A DNA stretch of 50,092 nucleotides from an uncultured Prevotellaceae bacterium (GTDB lineage: Bacteria > Bacteroidota > Bacteroidia > Bacteroidales > Bacteroidaceae), in the NCBI GenBank assembly GCA_902784065.1, contig CACZTJ010000002.1, positions 1 through 50,092 on the forward strand. Direction: 5' to 3'. The notes under the pieces were generated by a model. It saw only the letters and a program-made list of their open reading frames with translations. It ran no database searches and was not told the DNA's origin. This document shows positions 22,504-29,066 of the stretch, piece by piece (position 1 is the stretch's first letter; each line of letters starts with the position of its first letter). A program made the translations under genes and the position numbers.

Positions 22504-22534
22504 TTTGGTAGTAAGAAAAATATGCTTAACTTTG
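22504..22534 (+). promoter_or_regulatory. Promoter of the trp operon
   Basis: -33 TTTG (22504-22507), 19-base spacer, -7 TAACTTTG (22527-22534). Transcription would start about 20 bases before the leader-peptide ATG at 22560. The string at 22498-22512 is identical to the one at the ECF sigma promoter. Confidence 0.82.
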
Positions 22535-22559
22535 CACCCAAAAACTTAAAAAAGACAAG

Positions 22560-22613
22560 ATGAACAATTGTATGTATAACATTTGGTGGTGGCGTAACTC
22601 GAGATTAAAATAG
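22560..22613 (+). CDS. trpL: trp operon leader peptide (17 residues, three consecutive Trp)
   Basis: Short ORF encoding MNNCMYNIWWWRNSRLK, with three adjacent TGG codons at 22584-22592, positioned between the trp promoter and a terminator hairpin ahead of trpB. Three successive Trp in 17 residues is a strong sign of a ribosome-stalling sensor of charged tRNA-Trp. Its stop codon ends at 22613, the first base of the strand that can pair with the terminator's 5' arm, so a ribosome finishing the peptide would mask it. No Shine-Dalgarno is obvious (AAAAAAGACAAG precedes the ATG), which is normal for this phylum. Confidence 0.9.
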   Translation: MNNCMYNIWWWRNSRLK

Positions 22614-22692
22614 TCGCGAGGTTCATAGCCGTATGTTATCATTCAAACAGAAGATATAAGAAGGCTCGTCGCGACAGCGGCGAGTCTTTTTT
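22613..22692 (+). terminator. trp attenuator: antiterminator strand plus rho-independent terminator
   Basis: Terminator stem AAGGCTCGTCGC (22661-22672) with GCGGCGAGTCTT (22677-22688), GACA loop, six Ts at 22687-22692. An upstream string GTCGCGA (22613-22619) is exactly complementary to TCGCGAC (22669-22675), which covers the terminator's 5' arm and loop, so the two pairings exclude each other. A stall on the Trp codons leaves 22613-22619 free (readthrough), while translation to the stop codon covers it (termination). The pairing logic is read directly; in vivo function is inferred. Confidence 0.85.
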
Positions 22693-22725: not shown

Positions 22726-23934
22726 ATGAAAGAAAATTATTTTGTAGATGAAAGAGGTTTTTACGGAGAGTACGGCGGCGCCTATGTGCCAGAGATACTC
22801 TACAAGTGCGTACATGACTTGCAGGAGGCTTATCTGCCCATCATCGAATCGGCGCAGTTCAAAGAAGCCTACCATGCACTCCTGAAGGATTATGTGGGCC
22901 GTCCCTCACCTCTTTACTTTGCCAAACGTATGAGTGAACGCTACGGATGTCAGCTCTACCTGAAGCGTGAGGACCTAAACCACACTGGTGCCCACAAGAT
23001 CAACAACACGATCGGCCAGATTCTGTTGGCGAAGCAGATGGGTAAGACCCGTATCATCGCTGAGACTGGTGCAGGACAGCACGGAGTAGCTACAGCAACG
23101 GTCTGTGCCCTGATGGACATGAAATGTGAGGTGTTTATGGGTGCCACTGATGTGGAACGTCAGCACACCAACGTGGAGCGTATGAAGATGCTGGGTGCAG
23201 AGGTACATCCGGTAAGGACGGGTAACATGACCCTGAGCGATGCCTGTTCAGAAGCCATCCGCGACTGGTGCTGTCATCCGGCTGACACTTTCTACATCGT
23301 AGGTTCAACAATGGGTCCACATCCCTACCCTGACCTGGTAGCAAGGATGCAGAGCGTAATCTCAGAAGAGATTAAATGGCAGCTTGAAGAGAAAATTGGA
23401 CGTGACTATCCCGACTATCTGATTGCTTGCATCGGTGGAGGATCAAATGCTGCTGGCACTATCTACCATTATGTAAACGATGAGCGCGTAAAAATCGTTC
23501 TGGCAGAGGCAGGCGGACACGGCTGGGAGACCAACCATACAGCTGCTACCATCCATAAAGGCACTACTGGCATCCTACATGGTGCAAAGATGCTGGTCAT
23601 GCAGAACGAAGATGGACAGATTGAGGAAGCCTTCACTATCTCTGCAGGACTGGACTATCCTGGTGTGGGACCGATGCATTGCAATATGGCGAAGAAAGGT
23701 CGCACAGAGGTGCTGAGCATCAACGACGACGAAGCTATCTACGGAGGTTACGAACTGACCCGTATGGAGGGAATCATCCCTGCCATCGAGTCGGCACACG
23801 CCATCGCTGCCCTTAAAAAACTGACATTCAAACCTACTGATGTGGTTGTGCTGACTGTAAGTGGGCGCGGCGACAAGGATGTAGAAACTTACTTGAACAA
23901 CAAACTAATGGCAAAGGAATATGGAAACTTTTAA
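22726..23934 (+). CDS. trpB: Tryptophan synthase beta chain
   Basis: Joins indole and serine to tryptophan with pyridoxal phosphate, in complex with TrpA. 402 residues, normal length. N-terminal ERGFYGEYGGAYVPE, the PLP lysine in LNHTGAHKINNTIGQ (near 88), the catalytic Glu in ETGAGQHGVA (near 110), and the phosphate-binding CIGGGSNAAGT (near 233) are intact. First structural gene of the operon, 34 bases beyond the attenuator; its 3' end overlaps trpE by 14 bases. Confidence 0.98.
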   Translation: MKENYFVDERGFYGEYGGAYVPEILYKCVHDLQEAYLPIIESAQFKEAYHALLKDYVGRPSPLYFAKRMSERYGCQLYLKREDLNHTGAHKINNTIGQILLAKQMGKTRIIAETGAGQHGVATATVCALMDMKCEVFMGATDVERQHTNVERMKMLGAEVHPVRTGNMTLSDACSEAIRDWCCHPADTFYIVGSTMGPHPYPDLVARMQSVISEEIKWQLEEKIGRDYPDYLIACIGGGSNAAGTIYHYVNDERVKIVLAEAGGHGWETNHTAATIHKGTTGILHGAKMLVMQNEDGQIEEAFTISAGLDYPGVGPMHCNMAKKGRTEVLSINDDEAIYGGYELTRMEGIIPAIESAHAIAALKKLTFKPTDVVVLTVSGRGDKDVETYLNNKLMAKEYGNF

Positions 23935-25312
23935 ATATACGACCAAAAGCCGTACGATCTTGGCAGATCTCTATACACCAGTAGGCGTATATATGCGTCT
24001 GAGGGATCTTTACCCTCAGAGTGCCCTGATGGAGAGTTCTGACTATCACGAGAAAGACAACTCCCGCTCATTCATCGGCATTAATCCCATCGCCTCTGTT
24101 GCCATCGGACACGGAGAGGCAACAATCAAATTCCCTGATGGCAGCCAGGAGATGCACACTGTGAGTAAGGCATTCAGCAGTGCTCAAGCCATCCATGCGC
24201 TGACAGATCGCATTGAGGTAAGTGGAGAACAGGCAAAGGTATGCGGTCTCTACGGCTATACATCATTCAACGCTGTACGCTATTTCGAGGACATCGCAGT
24301 AAAAGATGAGACGCAGACCAAGAATGACGCCCCTGATATGCTCTATATCCTCTACAGAGAGGTGATCGTGTTTGATCATTTTAACAACCTGCTGACACTG
24401 GTGACACTGGGCGAAACGGAAGAGCTGGACAAACTCTTCAAGGCCATGAACCGCACAAATATTCAGGCTTACGACTTCCATCCTGTGGGTGATACCACCA
24501 GCACGCTGACTGATGAGGAGCACAAGGCAAATATCCGCAAGGGTATCCAGCACTGTTTGAGAGGTGACGTCTTCCAGATTGTTCTTTCACGACGATTCAT
24601 TCAGCGCTATGAGGGCGATGATTTCAAGCTCTACCGTGCGCTGCGCAGTATCAATCCCTCACCTTACCTCTTTTATTTCGACTTTGGTGGATTCCGTATC
24701 TTCGGCTCTTCACCAGAGACCCACTGCCGCATTCAAGATCGTAAAGCCTATATCGATCCGATAGCAGGTACAACCAAGAGAACAGGCGATGCAGAAGCCG
24801 ACCGACGGGGAGCCGACTACCTAAGGAATGATCCCAAGGAGAATGCCGAACACGTGATGCTGGTGGATCTGGCCCGTAATGACCTGTCGCGTAACTGTCA
24901 TGGTGTAAAGGTGGATTTCTACAAAGATTTGCAGTACTATTCACACGTGATCCACCTGGTGAGTCGCGTGAGTGGAGAGCTCGATGAAGGAGCAGATCCC
25001 ATCAAGGCCTTTATTGACACTTTCCCTGCTGGTACACTCAGTGGTGCACCAAAGGTAAGAGCCATGCAGCTCATCTCGGAATACGAGCCACATAACAGAG
25101 GTGCTTATGGCGGCTGTATCGGCTATATCGGACTTGACGGCTCCCTGAACCAGGCCATCACCATCCGTACGTTTGTAGCCAGAAACGGTGAACTTTGGTT
25201 CCAGGCCGGTGGTGGCATCGTAGCTAAGAGCGATGTTGAATACGAGTTGCAGGAAGTAAACAACAAACTCGGAGCCCTGCGCAGAGCCATTCTGATGGCA
25301 GAAGACATGTAG
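23921..25312 (+). CDS. trpE: Anthranilate synthase component I
   Basis: Makes anthranilate from chorismate with ammonia supplied by TrpG. 463 residues. The N-terminal domain holds SALMESSDYHEKDNSRSFIG, the region of Trp feedback binding (L-x-E-S with a later Ser). The C-terminal chorismate-binding domain has GDVFQIVLSRRF, PSPYLFYFDFG, DPIAGTTKRTG, DLARNDLSR and GTLSGAPKVRAM. All are canonical, so the enzyme should be Trp-inhibited as well as attenuated. It starts inside the end of trpB and is separate from trpG. Confidence 0.97.
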   Translation: METFKYTTKSRTILADLYTPVGVYMRLRDLYPQSALMESSDYHEKDNSRSFIGINPIASVAIGHGEATIKFPDGSQEMHTVSKAFSSAQAIHALTDRIEVSGEQAKVCGLYGYTSFNAVRYFEDIAVKDETQTKNDAPDMLYILYREVIVFDHFNNLLTLVTLGETEELDKLFKAMNRTNIQAYDFHPVGDTTSTLTDEEHKANIRKGIQHCLRGDVFQIVLSRRFIQRYEGDDFKLYRALRSINPSPYLFYFDFGGFRIFGSSPETHCRIQDRKAYIDPIAGTTKRTGDAEADRRGADYLRNDPKENAEHVMLVDLARNDLSRNCHGVKVDFYKDLQYYSHVIHLVSRVSGELDEGADPIKAFIDTFPAGTLSGAPKVRAMQLISEYEPHNRGAYGGCIGYIGLDGSLNQAITIRTFVARNGELWFQAGGGIVAKSDVEYELQEVNNKLGALRRAILMAEDM

Positions 25313-25340
25313 ATAATGACAGAACAGATATAAAGACAAT

Positions 25341-25907
25341 ATGATGAAAATAGTTATCATTGACAACTACGACTCGTTTACATATAATCTGAGTCATCTG
25401 GTGAAGGAGTTGGGAGCAGATGTGACTGTGTTGCGCAACGACCAGTTTGAACTCTCTGAGTTGGAACCTTATTCCAAGATCATTCTCTCACCAGGCCCAG
25501 GCATTCCCTCAGAGGCTGGTTTGCTATGTGATGTTATCCGCACTTATGCTGGGATCAAACCGATCCTCGGTGTCTGTCTCGGTCATCAGGCAATCGGCGA
25601 GGTATTTGGTGGAAAACTGGAGAATCTGAGTGATGTGTTCCACGGTGTGGCTACTGAGGGCACCCAGTTTGGCAACGATCCGCTGTTCAGTGGTCTTCCT
25701 GAACGTATCACGATGGGGCGCTACCACTCCTGGGTGGTATCGAAAGAAGGATTCCCAGAGTGTCTGGAGATTACAGCAGAAAGCGATGAAGGGCAGATCA
25801 TGGCCCTACGTCACAAGACATTAAACGTCAGGGGAATCCAGTTCCATCCTGAGAGCGTGCTCACACCAGATGGAAGAAAAATGTTGCAGAACTGGATGTT
25901 TTTATAA
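25341..25907 (+). CDS. trpG: Anthranilate synthase component II (glutamine amidotransferase)
   Basis: Class I glutamine amidotransferase feeding ammonia to TrpE. 188 residues. DNYDSFTYNLSHLV at the N-terminus, oxyanion strand SPGPGIPSEAG, nucleophile Cys in GVCLGHQAIGE (near 77), and the His-Glu pair in FHPESVLTPDG near the end complete the catalytic triad. Two adjacent ATGs (25341, 25344) are possible starts. Close relatives (pabA) share all motifs, and the same protein may serve folate synthesis; context makes trpG the main call. Confidence 0.96.
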   Translation: MMKIVIIDNYDSFTYNLSHLVKELGADVTVLRNDQFELSELEPYSKIILSPGPGIPSEAGLLCDVIRTYAGIKPILGVCLGHQAIGEVFGGKLENLSDVFHGVATEGTQFGNDPLFSGLPERITMGRYHSWVVSKEGFPECLEITAESDEGQIMALRHKTLNVRGIQFHPESVLTPDGRKMLQNWMFL

Positions 25908-25936
25908 TTTAAGTATTAATTTAATGATTAAGAGTT

Positions 25937-26947
25937 ATGGCACAGACAATGAAGGATATACTCAACAGGATGTTGAATCATGAAGAACTCTCCCGTGAGG
26001 AGATGAAACAGATTCTGATAGGTATCACACAATCGGAATATCCTACGGAACAGATCACGGCACTGCTCACCGCTTTACAGATGCGCGGCGTCACAGTAGA
26101 TGAGTTACTCGGCTTCCGCGACGGTATTCTAGAGACGGGTGTCCCCGCCCTATTGAAGGCAGACCGCTATATCGATGTAGTAGGTACTGGAGGTGACAGG
26201 AAGAACACCTTTAACATTTCCACAACGGCCTGTTTCGTGATAGCAGGTGCAGGTTATAAGGTAGCCAAACACGGCAACTATGCCGCCACCTCGGTAAGTG
26301 GTGCTTCCAACGTAATCCAGCATCATGGCATCAAGTTCACCGACGACATTGATCGTCTGAACCGCTCTCTCGACGAGGCTGGCATCGTCTATCTGCATGC
26401 ACAGCTCTTTGCCAAGGCAATGAAGTTTGTAGGTCCTATCCGCAAAGCCCTCCAGTTCCCCACCATCTTCAATCTGTTAGGTCCTCTGGTTAATCCCAGT
26501 CAGCCAACCTGTCAACTTCTGGGCGTTGCAAACCTCGATCAGATGCGCTTATATAATAATGTATATCAGAAGATTGGCATCGACTATGGTATTGTGAACT
26601 CTATCGATGGTTACGACGAGATCTCACTGACGGGACCGTTCAAGGTAACCACCAACCATTATGAGCGGGTGTTTGCCCCTGCAGATTTGGGTTTCGACAT
26701 TGCCAAACCGGAAGAGTTGGTAGGTGGTGCCACTGAAGAGGAGGCCGCAGAGATCTTCGATAGCGTGCTGGAGAACCGCTCCCTGCCTGCTCAGAAGAAC
26801 ATCGTATTGGCGAATGCTGCTTTCGGCATCCAGGTATTGGAGAAAGGTCAGAAGAGTATTGAGGAGTGTATCGACATTGCCCGAGAGAGTATCGACAGCG
26901 GTAAGGCACTAGCCACATTCAAGAAATTCGTTGAACTGAATAGCTAA
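25937..26947 (+). CDS. trpD: Anthranilate phosphoribosyltransferase
   Basis: Transfers phosphoribose from PRPP to anthranilate. 336 residues, family norm. The PRPP-binding glycine loop GTGGDRKNTFNIST (near 77), KHGNYAATSVSGASNV (near 105) and the NLLGPLVNPSQP segment (near 173) are present. One substitution from the more usual GNRxxSS is the Tyr-Ala-Ala (NYAATS) before SGASNV, which looks like a lineage variant rather than a defect. It lies 29 bases after trpG and 7 before trpC. Confidence 0.97.
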   Translation: MAQTMKDILNRMLNHEELSREEMKQILIGITQSEYPTEQITALLTALQMRGVTVDELLGFRDGILETGVPALLKADRYIDVVGTGGDRKNTFNISTTACFVIAGAGYKVAKHGNYAATSVSGASNVIQHHGIKFTDDIDRLNRSLDEAGIVYLHAQLFAKAMKFVGPIRKALQFPTIFNLLGPLVNPSQPTCQLLGVANLDQMRLYNNVYQKIGIDYGIVNSIDGYDEISLTGPFKVTTNHYERVFAPADLGFDIAKPEELVGGATEEEAAEIFDSVLENRSLPAQKNIVLANAAFGIQVLEKGQKSIEECIDIARESIDSGKALATFKKFVELNS

Positions 26948-26954
26948 GAGTTAT

Positions 26955-27695
26955 ATGGCAAAAGACATATTACAAGAAATCGTTGAACATAAATGCAAGG
27001 AACTGGAATTGTGGAAAGCCCCCAAACCTTCCCTGCGCGAGGCTTTGCTTCAGAGCGAGACAGGCATCATCGCAGAGTTTAAGCGTAAGTCGCCGTCGAG
27101 GGGCTGGATCAAGGAGGATGGACGAGCCGACATCATTCCGCTGAGTTATCAGCAGAACGGCGCCGCAGCTATCAGCATCCTTACCGATGAGCATTACTTC
27201 GGAGGGCACGACGATTTCATCCGAGCCGCCCACCAGTCGGGAGTGACGATACCTATTTTATATAAGAACTTTGTCGTCGACGAGTTCCAGCTTTACGAGG
27301 CAGCCCTCTGCGGAGCTTCTGCCGTACTCCTCATTGCCGCCTGCCTTACTATCGAGCGCTGTGCCGAACTCATGCATATAGCTCATAGCCTTGGGCTTGA
27401 GGTACTGCTTGAGATGCATGACGAAGCCGAATTGAAATATGCTGAACTGCAGCCCGATCTCTGCGGCATCAACAACCGTAACCTCGGCTCGTTTGTGACT
27501 GATGTTCAGAATTCCTACCGTTTGGCAGAGTTATTGCCAAAAGATGCTGTCAAGGTCAGCGAAAGCGGTATTTCTAACCCCGATACCGTCCGTGCGCTTC
27601 GCCAAGCAGGCTTCCGCGGATTCCTCATTGGTGAGAACTTCATGAAGACGCCTGATCCCGGTCTGGCACTCCAACAATTTGTAAGTCAGCTATGA
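26955..27695 (+). CDS. trpC: Indole-3-glycerol-phosphate synthase
   Basis: Closes the indole ring of 1-(2-carboxyphenylamino)-1-deoxyribulose-5-phosphate. A TIM barrel of 246 residues with catalytic EFKRKSPSRGWIK (Lys/Glu, near 41), LTDEHYFGG (near 77), LYKNFVVDEFQ (near 97), CGINNRNLGSF (near 175) and VSESGIS. It is a stand-alone enzyme, not fused to TrpF; its stop overlaps the trpF start (ATGA). Slightly shorter than the E. coli domain, but all catalytic parts are present. Confidence 0.97.
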   Translation: MAKDILQEIVEHKCKELELWKAPKPSLREALLQSETGIIAEFKRKSPSRGWIKEDGRADIIPLSYQQNGAAAISILTDEHYFGGHDDFIRAAHQSGVTIPILYKNFVVDEFQLYEAALCGASAVLLIAACLTIERCAELMHIAHSLGLEVLLEMHDEAELKYAELQPDLCGINNRNLGSFVTDVQNSYRLAELLPKDAVKVSESGISNPDTVRALRQAGFRGFLIGENFMKTPDPGLALQQFVSQL

Positions 27696-28297
27696 TCATC
27701 AAAGTATGTGGTATGCGAGAAGCGGAGAACATCCGTGAGGCCGAGTCCTTGGGCATCGACCTTATGGGCTTCATCTTCTGGCCTAAGTCCAACCGCAATG
27801 TCAGTGAACGTCCGGCTTACCTGCCCACGAGGTGCAAGCGTGTTGGTGTATTCGTCGATGCGAGTTTGGAGGATATCCGCCAGCATGCCGAAGAATACCA
27901 ACTCGACCTCATCCAGCTGCACGGACATGAGTCACCGGCATTTGCAAAAGCCCTGAAACCTCTGTCACTCATCAAGGCCTTTAATATTGCCTGTGCTGAG
28001 GATCTCAGACAGACAGAAATGTATGAAGGTGTCGTTGACTATTTTCTCTTTGACACTAAAGGGAAGGTGGTTGGTGGCAACGGGGTGAAGTTCGACTGGT
28101 CAGTGCTCTCGGCTTATCAAGGCTCCACCCCATTCCTGCTCAGCGGAGGAATCGGACCTGACGATGTGGAGGCACTCAACGGTTTCCATCATTCTCAATG
28201 CATAGGCATCGACCTGAACTCACGTTTCGAGGTTGAGCCGGCTCTTAAAGATATCCCCAAACTTAGACAATTCATAAATCAATTGCATCATGAATAA
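27692..28297 (+). CDS. trpF: Phosphoribosylanthranilate isomerase
   Basis: Amadori rearrangement of phosphoribosylanthranilate. TIM barrel of 201 residues: catalytic Cys in IIKVCGMREAENI at the N-terminus, MGFIFWPKSNRNV, LIQLHGHES (near 71), FDTKGKVVGGNGVKFDW with the catalytic Asp (near 122), and LSGGIGPDDVE (near 148). Overlaps trpC at the start and trpA by 8 bases at the end, consistent with translational coupling. Confidence 0.97.
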   Translation: MIIKVCGMREAENIREAESLGIDLMGFIFWPKSNRNVSERPAYLPTRCKRVGVFVDASLEDIRQHAEEYQLDLIQLHGHESPAFAKALKPLSLIKAFNIACAEDLRQTEMYEGVVDYFLFDTKGKVVGGNGVKFDWSVLSAYQGSTPFLLSGGIGPDDVEALNGFHHSQCIGIDLNSRFEVEPALKDIPKLRQFINQLHHE

Positions 28298-29066
28298 AAT
28301 CAATCAACTTTTCGCAAATCTCCAGGATCGCAAGCTGCTTTCACTCTATTTCTGTGCCGGCAGTCCAACGTTTGAGAGTACCACAGATATTATCTTAGCC
28401 ACCCAGCGACGAGGTATCGACATGGTGGAGGTGGGTATTCCCTTCAGCGATCCACTGGCTGACGGTCCTGTCATCCAAAGTGCTGCAACCCAGGCCTTGC
28501 GCAACGGCATGAGCCTGAAGAAACTCTTCGAACAACTGAAGAGCATTAAAGATGAAGTCACTATGCCCTTGGTACTCATGGGTTATCTGAATCCTATCCT
28601 GCATTACGGTATTGAGGCGTTCTGCCAGAGTTGTGCAGAGAGTGGTGTCAGCGGTGCCATCATCCCTGATCTACCTTTTAAAGACTATCTCGACATCGTA
28701 AAACCTGTAGCCGATCGTTACGACATTCGTATCATCATGCTCATCACCCCTGAGACCAGCGAGGAGCGCATCCGCTTCATCGACGAACATACCGACGGCT
28801 TTATCTATATGGTATCGTCAGCCGCTATCACCGGTGCCCAGAAATCCTTTGATGATGCCAAACAGGCCTATTTCCGTCGTATTGATGCCATGCAATTACG
28901 TAATCCGCGTATGATTGGCTTTGGTATCAGTAACCAACAGACACTTCAAGCTGCACAACATAATGCTGCAGGTGCTATCATCGGCTCTAAATTTGTGACA
29001 CTACTCAATGAGAGTAAGGATGCCGACGAAGCACTTGACAAGCTGTTCGAAGCTCTCGCAAGTTAA
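28290..29066 (+). CDS. trpA: Tryptophan synthase alpha chain
   Basis: Cleaves indole-3-glycerol phosphate to indole for TrpB. 258 residues, normal. Catalytic Glu in DMVEVGIPFSDPLADGPVIQ (near 46) and Asp in IIPDLPFKDY (near 126), with the phosphate-binding GFGISN loop (near 212). One difference from common members is the flexible loop SSAAITGAQKS, where many have VTG. Last gene of the operon; no terminator was seen in the 97-base gap before the pectin operon, which has its own promoter. Confidence 0.97.
   Translation: MNKINQLFANLQDRKLLSLYFCAGSPTFESTTDIILATQRRGIDMVEVGIPFSDPLADGPVIQSAATQALRNGMSLKKLFEQLKSIKDEVTMPLVLMGYLNPILHYGIEAFCQSCAESGVSGAIIPDLPFKDYLDIVKPVADRYDIRIIMLITPETSEERIRFIDEHTDGFIYMVSSAAITGAQKSFDDAKQAYFRRIDAMQLRNPRMIGFGISNQQTLQAAQHNAAGAIIGSKFVTLLNESKDADEALDKLFEALAS

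Follow-up and report, generated by a model that had tools for sequence, protein, structure and literature searches.

A probable ribosome-mediated trp transcription attenuator with a Trp-Trp-Trp leader peptide ahead of trpB in a Prevotellaceae bacterium

Main finding

The trp operon of the window, which is the whole 50,092-nucleotide stretch of DNA that was analysed, is preceded by an element that is very probably a transcription attenuator governed by a translating ribosome, as in E. coli, and a homologue of the Bacteroid-trp leaders. Four lines of evidence speak for this reading of the sequence: the Trp codons are conserved, three helices covary, the geometry is fixed, and the element is present at operon heads but absent before internal trpB genes. 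The attenuator logic proposed in a preliminary description of this DNA thus stands.

Organization of the locus

The gene order of the operon is trpB-E-G-D-C-F-A. The features of the locus are as follows.

22504 to 22534, + strand: promoter of Bacteroidota type, with TTTG at 22504-22507, a 19-nt spacer, and TAnnTTTG, here TAACTTTG, at 22527-22534 (direct reading)
22560 to 22613, + strand: leader peptide ORF MNNCMYNIWWWRNSRLK of 17 codons, with ATG at 22560 and stop codon TAG at 22611-22613 (direct reading; WW or WxW leaders in relatives)
22568 to 22646, + strand: longer hairpin of ribosome-free RNA, taking in the 1:2 stem as well as the Trp codons (minimum free energy, MFE, fold)
22584 to 22592, + strand: three adjacent TGG (Trp) control codons (direct reading)
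22598 to 22607, + strand: strand 1 of the protector (1:2) hairpin (MFE fold and covariation)
22611 to 22620, + strand: strand 2, partner of strand 1 or, as antiterminator, of the terminator; it starts at the leader stop codon
22627 to 22630, + strand: second antiterminator segment AGCC, with partner GGCT at 22663-22666
22658 to 22692, + strand: intrinsic terminator, with the 3:4 stem at 22658-22691 (15 bp in the MFE fold) and six T at 22687-22692
22669 to 22675, + strand: terminator 5' arm/loop segment TCGCGAC, partner of the antiterminator GTCGCGA (22613-22619) in the register of the window clade
22726 to 23934, + strand: trpB, first gene of the operon (translation; query in the searches for relatives)
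23921 to 29066, + strand: trpE, trpG, trpD, trpC, trpF, and trpA, the remainder of the operon (identities from reading the translations, which served as queries)

The preliminary description had reported a 17-residue ORF with three adjacent TGG codons, a stop codon abutting the antiterminator strand, and a GC-rich stem with six T just before trpB. All three were found again on direct reading and folding, the TAG lying where strand 2 begins and the ATG of trpB following the terminator T-run by 33 nt. It had also described 22613-22619 as exactly complementary to 22669-22675, and the two segments, GTCGCGA and TCGCGAC, are indeed exact reverse complements. The promoter and the 1:2 hairpin nested in a longer hairpin are additions to that description. 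TGGTGGTGG occurs 129 times on both strands of 2.66 Mb, which corresponds to approximately 0.004 expected occurrences per 150 nt of one strand. TTTG/TAnnTTTG is here taken to be the promoter consensus of Bacteroidota, and the position of the promoter would place the transcription start near 22541. Of the 180 leaders, 150 have TAnnTTTG no more than 70 nt from their ATG, compared with 6.0 expected from mono-nucleotide shuffles.

Under the proposed mechanism, when charged tRNA-Trp is plentiful, the ribosome would reach the stop codon and cover strand 2, and the terminator would fold. When charged tRNA-Trp is scarce, the ribosome would stall at the TGG codons and mask strand 1, and the freed strand 2 would form the antiterminator before the 3' arm of the terminator is synthesized, resulting in read-through into trpBEGDCFA. 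An untranslated leader would form the 1:2 hairpin, followed by termination. The mechanism presupposes close transcription-translation coupling, which is assumed for Bacteroidota.

Occurrence of the leader in relatives

Relatives were drawn from several searches. The best 80 of 576 relatives were taken from the first trpB search. Within the GTDB family, trpB was matched in 141 of 151 genomes at E <= 0.001, with distant TrpB2-like matches counted; the corresponding values were 207 of 247 genomes for the phylum at E <= 1e-100 and 58 of 148 for the order at E <= 1e-150, and trpE was matched in 32 of 99 genomes of the class at E <= 1e-60. The upstream regions examined (L001-L236, n = 236) represent a part of all matches and include the window itself (L081); some genomes are probably present twice, in the first-search set and in the GTDB-family set, and the leaders of L023 and L082 are identical. 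The search criterion for a leader was at least two Trp (WW or WxW).

Of the 236 regions, the window counted, 180 had a Trp-rich leader; these leaders contained WWW in 134 cases, WWWW in 4, WW in 29, and WxW in 13. The remaining 56 regions, among them the internal control genes, had no leader or a chance ORF alone. Conservation of the leader and its pairings in relatives had been proposed at the outset as a check, and it was passed both by these counts and by the covariation of 92 leaders described below.

In the first trpB set, which includes the window and its best 80 relatives, a WW or WxW leader was present in 104 of 110 regions, and WW lay within 400 nt in 99 of 110. Among the six exceptions, L055 is clipped by a contig end with the TGG run still visible, the genomes of L088, L089, and L090 carry a WWW leader in front of trpD, where a rearranged cluster begins (L289, L290, and L291), the genome of L094 has a WW leader approximately 0.8 kb before trpB (L292), and no leader was found at L092. 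Of the three genomes with this rearranged cluster, in which trpD is near the front and has a leader before it (L289-L291), two are from the window genus and the third is from a different genus within the family. Further trpB loci of the family had a leader in 36 of 40 cases; L114, L136, and L146 were without one, and L121 had a chance ORF alone. In the order, 16 of 18 trpB-first loci (L179-L196) had a leader, the exceptions being L192, from a 1.2-Mb genome, and L196. At the class level, trpE loci with enough upstream sequence had a Trp-rich leader in 24 of 25 cases, L210 and L218 being too short and L212 the exception. The region before trpE in L212 contains a short ORF with TGG TGC TGC (one Trp and two Cys) and a terminator-like stretch; this ORF is possibly a decaying copy or the product of a sequence error.

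No leader was found in any of 28 regions (500 nt) in which trpB lies behind another trp gene on the same strand (L151-L178, the best-scoring new loci among the 207 phylum matches), or in any of three regions before an internal trpE (L207-L209). The other ten loci of the order (L197-L206) yielded three chance WxW ORFs and no convincing leader; nine of them have an upstream trp gene, and L202 has none in its locus. Since leaders occur at operon heads and are missing at internal genes, the leader follows the operon head. Nine loci have no leader although an upstream trp gene was unseen or unchecked (L092, L114, L121, L136, L146, L192, L196, L202, and L212).

Loose WxW ORFs in L121, L199, L200, and L205 were judged to be due to chance and were removed, which lowered the count from 184 to 180. 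Those of L200 and L205 overlap trpF, which ends just before trpB, that of L199 lies between trpB and the end of trpF approximately 550 nt before it, and that of L121 is unlike the others. In the window's own genome, short ORFs at the four loci of hisG, ilvD, and two of three aspartokinase hits (L267-L270, with flanks of up to approximately 1.5 kb; the third hit, L271, was left out) contained no His run of at least three and no run of at least five residues of the branched-chain/Thr set.

RNA folding

The fold of 22541-22692 had a z-score of -5.68, and none of 200 shuffles was equally stable. MFE pairing comparable to the longer hairpin was obtained for 123 of 147 motif-bearing leaders, compared with 37 of 147 after shuffling of the 3' 35 nt. 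Masked folds were computed with an assumed ribosome footprint. With the Trp codons occupied by a ribosome, window RNA up to 22677 adopted the antiterminator fold (-23.3 kcal/mol); when the ribosome was placed at the stop codon instead, the antiterminator pairing was unavailable and the terminator formed. In the full-length RNA with the Trp stall, the equilibrium fold was the terminator (-27.6 versus -23.3 kcal/mol). Since the terminator is the more stable structure in the complete RNA, the choice between the two must be kinetic. The choice at the E. coli attenuator is likewise kinetic.

A predicted terminator of -10 kcal/mol or better was present in 161 of the 180 leaders. Under a strict rule the terminator was missing in 34 of 180, of which a looser rule recovered 22; poor terminators are among the looser-rule calls (e.g., L102, L103, L110, L125, and L140).

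Covariation and register of the antiterminator

Alignment A1 contains 92 leaders, and its helix columns were picked by eye. The 1:2 helix (columns 12-20 with 27-35) was paired in 85.1% of cells with 82 double-sided changes (shuffled mean 19.8), the 3:4 terminator in 97.3% with 163 (shuffled mean 40.4), and the 2:3 antiterminator, over all 92 sequences, in 88.8% with 34 (shuffled mean 6.9); these double-change cell counts were reached by none of 500 shuffles for any of the three helices, with the caveat of the covariation tool that kinship alone can lift counts above shuffles without structure. Two inner pairs of the 1:2 helix fail, in 61 and 28 of the 92 sequences, respectively. The number of double-changed pairs in this helix was weakly above shuffles (49 of 500), and the measure of further standard pair types was not above them, being reached by 411 of 500 shuffles for 1:2 and 364 of 500 for 2:3. 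When the registers were slid, 17 to 66% of cells paired, and the double-change maxima were 10 for 1:2, 48 for 3:4, and 21 for 2:3. The last value, obtained with the 2:3 partner slid by +3 columns and set against 34 in register, is the least clear of the sliding controls. Covariation thus supports 1:2, 2:3, and 3:4 as predicted alternative helices, of which 2:3 is the weakest and needs two registers.

The strand-2 type divides the alignment. In 20 of the 92 sequences strand 2 is of the window type, and pairing with the 5' arm and loop of the terminator accounts for 135 of 140 cells, compared with 112 of 159 in the other register. In the other 72, strand 2 fits the loop and 3' arm better, with 538 of 573 cells paired, than the window register (322 of 500). 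The preliminary description had placed the antiterminator on the 5' arm and loop; this holds for the window clade and gives way to the loop and 3' arm in the 72 relatives. The window clade shows, as judged from the alignment, a shift in antiterminator register.

Pairing of individual leaders was also compared with shuffles. A target limited to the terminator 5' arm and loop was rejected, the pairing reaching the 5% level in 40 of 75 leaders of the window clade, 10 of 62 other trpB leaders, and 12 of 23 trpE leaders. With the target extended to the 3' arm, the corresponding values were 39 of 58, 52 of 64, and 13 of 21; of 143 unique leaders, 104 had a pairing that no more than 5% of shuffles equalled, and in 39 more than 5% of shuffles equalled it. 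The extended target was chosen post hoc, and the covariation counts are therefore the stronger test.

Geometry and translation of the leader

The exact strand-2 motif is present in 147 of the 180 leaders and missing in 33, and in 144 of the 147 it starts 18-22 nt past the final Trp codon. The leader stop falls within the motif in 91 of the 147, before it in 30, and after it in 26, and frames 0, 1, and 2 all occur. With the spacing of the motif fixed and the reading frame variable, the RNA is kept more than the peptide. When RNA was masked to 12 nt past the stop, the best antiterminator pairing lost 3 kcal/mol or more in all 143 leaders, a one-sided comparison given that the masked region is a subset. 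According to these distances and the masked folds, a ribosome on the Trp codons would cover strand 1 only, and one at the stop codon would cover strand 2.

Residues past the Trp run (R-S-R, LQL..KS) are conserved across genera, as they might be if the leader peptide were a TnaC-like nascent-chain sensor of free tryptophan in which these residues sense. This is very unlikely: the codons concerned overlap strands 1 and 2, the distance to the motif is fixed while stop position and frame vary, and the leader C-termini differ by lineage (RLK, RTRD, KTSRG, KS, VVSQPGLFLY). Conservation of the peptide independently of RNA structure would characterize such a sensor, and here the RNA motif is kept and the frame is not. 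In an attenuator, the conservation of the C-terminal residues is best explained as a side effect of the RNA pairing.

A long structured 5' UTR ending in a terminator would also suit a T-box, a TRAP-like element, or a Trp riboswitch governing the terminator, with the short ORF incidental. Almost no weight is given to this explanation: the heads of trp operons repeatedly carry adjacent Trp codons although their flanks diverge, internal genes do not, and, when Rfam was searched with 261 nt of the window up to E = 10, the sole match below E = 1 was Bacteroid-trp (TRAP-type protein binding being outside the reach of Rfam).

No Shine-Dalgarno sequence precedes the leader ATG of the window on direct reading, as the preliminary description had stated; among the 180 leaders a Shine-Dalgarno 4-mer (AGGA, GGAG, or GAGG) occurs within 15 nt in 3 and a 5-mer in none, so the question it raised about translation of the leader is a real one. 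Across the 180 leaders, A makes up on average 52% of the 20 nt preceding the ATG. Translation-coupled or Rho-dependent control, in which ribosome loading or access of Rho would take the place of the intrinsic terminator, would draw on this near-absence and on the reinitiation proposed for gene-proximal leader ORFs (PMC4833913, in the part available), and is scarcely credible given that the intrinsic terminator is kept by covariation in the 92 sequences of A1 and that the 112 nt from leader stop to trpB in the window are far for reinitiation.

Spread to other transcription units

Matches to RF01692 away from the known places, mostly below its cut-off, led to 20 stretches being fetched. A WW leader preceded a standalone trpB2-like gene in nine (L282-L286, L293-L295, and L301) and trpD in seven (L287-L291, L298, and L299); L292 lies far before trpB, L300 is before no nameable gene within 400 nt, and L296 and L297 are without a leader. 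The TrpB2-like ORFs behind the leaders are 440-476 aa in length with 26-29% identity to the TrpB of the window, and a closely related trpB was not found in seven of the nine genomes. The leader at TrpB2-like genes suggests Trp-controlled indole salvage. Two attenuators per genome were seen in G069 (L287) and G087 (L288), one before trpB and a similar second one 4.9 or 6.6 kb on, before trpD. In these two genomes a split trp operon thus carries two leaders.

Wider significance

The analysis favours, with moderate confidence, leader-peptide trp attenuation as the default throughout the class Bacteroidia: a modular, Shine-Dalgarno-free element that would track the unit head (trpB, trpE, trpD, or standalone trpB2) and whose register in the window clade would have been switched by the strand-2 change from GUCGURAG to GUCGCGAG. 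If this is true, the operon would be a natural single-operon reporter at which transcription-translation coupling can be tested directly in a phylum where Shine-Dalgarno initiation is uncommon. In classical attenuation, the ribosome must closely trail RNA polymerase. Because attenuation needs a trailing ribosome and the element is widespread in Bacteroidia, the results suggest that at least the trp operon is coupled there, with leader translation starting without Shine-Dalgarno pairing.

Comparison with known systems

The E. coli trp leader, trpL (Trp_leader in Rfam), has a leader peptide with adjacent Trp residues, alternative 1:2, 2:3, and 3:4 structures, a stop codon at strand 2, and an intrinsic terminator before the first trp gene. 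The window shares these features with the E. coli layout as it is generally known, taken without a direct comparison; unlike trpL, it has no Shine-Dalgarno sequence, a Bacteroidota promoter, and trpB rather than trpE as first gene. Trp_leader was not among the Rfam matches of the 261 nt searched up to E = 10. The peTrpL peptide of S. meliloti contains a WWW run. It is also the leader peptide of a trp attenuator, and a trans-acting role of the peptide is reported in the available part of PMC7298713.

The closest known system is the Rfam family RF01692, named Bacteroid-trp (Bacteroidete tryptophan peptide leader RNA), which Weinberg et al. (2010; PMC2864571, available in part) give for Bacteroidetes in their Table 1. 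Its model aligned with the window over its full length (1-131) at 36.4 bits, with E = 0.0072 for 261 nt and E = 0.0176 for the whole genome. The Rfam scan of the window at the gathering score was empty; the cut-off of RF01692 is 49 bits, and the default scan therefore misses the window copy. Homology is indicated by position, the full-length alignment, intermediates scoring above the cut-off, and the single continuous alignment A1. Two of the above-cut-off genomes belong to the window genus (G005, corresponding to L091, and G150, corresponding to L289), and their trp leaders have the same layout. Under stricter filters, by which some weak matches were lost, RF01692 exceeded its cut-off in 29 of 151 GTDB-family genomes and 4 of 99 class genomes; direct reading gave 61 leaders (25 of 30 and 36 of 40 loci) from the 151 family genomes, not all of which were fetched. 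RF01692 and the window share the phylum, a leader RNA at trp genes, a hairpin around the Trp codons, the strand-2 motif AGUCGUAAG, and a terminator start in the consensus. They differ in strand 2, which in the window reads GUCGCGAG and has the 5' arm and loop of the terminator, instead of the loop and 3' arm, as its partner. The model stops partway through the 5' arm of the terminator, and no antiterminator appears in its printed structure line. As default annotation misses many copies, A1 and the antiterminator pairing could mend this gap.

A 2004 survey by Vitreschak and others reportedly listed Bacteroidetes/Chlorobi. According to the available part of a 2010 article (PMC2965389), leader-peptide systems had at that time been demonstrated in no group beyond Proteobacteria and Actinobacteria, and trp leaders of Bacteroidetes do not come up in the available parts of PMC4833913, PMC1262725, and PMC9413887. 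The accessible text of PMC9723704 and PMC7366714 mentions, for the phylum, leader-peptide attenuation or ORFs that call it to mind. PMC6414381 (2019), as far as available, places a Bacteroid-Trp RNA before the Flavobacterium psychrophilum trp operon, compares it with the E. coli trp leader, and links it to attenuation; PMC9723704 infers leader-peptide attenuators in the same species. These resemble the window element in being leader-peptide attenuators before amino-acid operons of the same phylum and differ in belonging to another order; in the available portions of both articles, neither covariation nor an antiterminator pairing was found.

Because RF01692 and PMC6414381 (seen in part) describe the element in the phylum, the preliminary claim of an attenuator in Bacteroidales is upheld as to its presence and is not new in kind. 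The finding is mostly a confirmation, the element having been catalogued as Bacteroid-trp and its role already proposed in print. What is added to the known systems is the antiterminator pairing, the register shift of the window clade, the spread to trpD and trpB2 units, and the near-absence of Shine-Dalgarno sequences.
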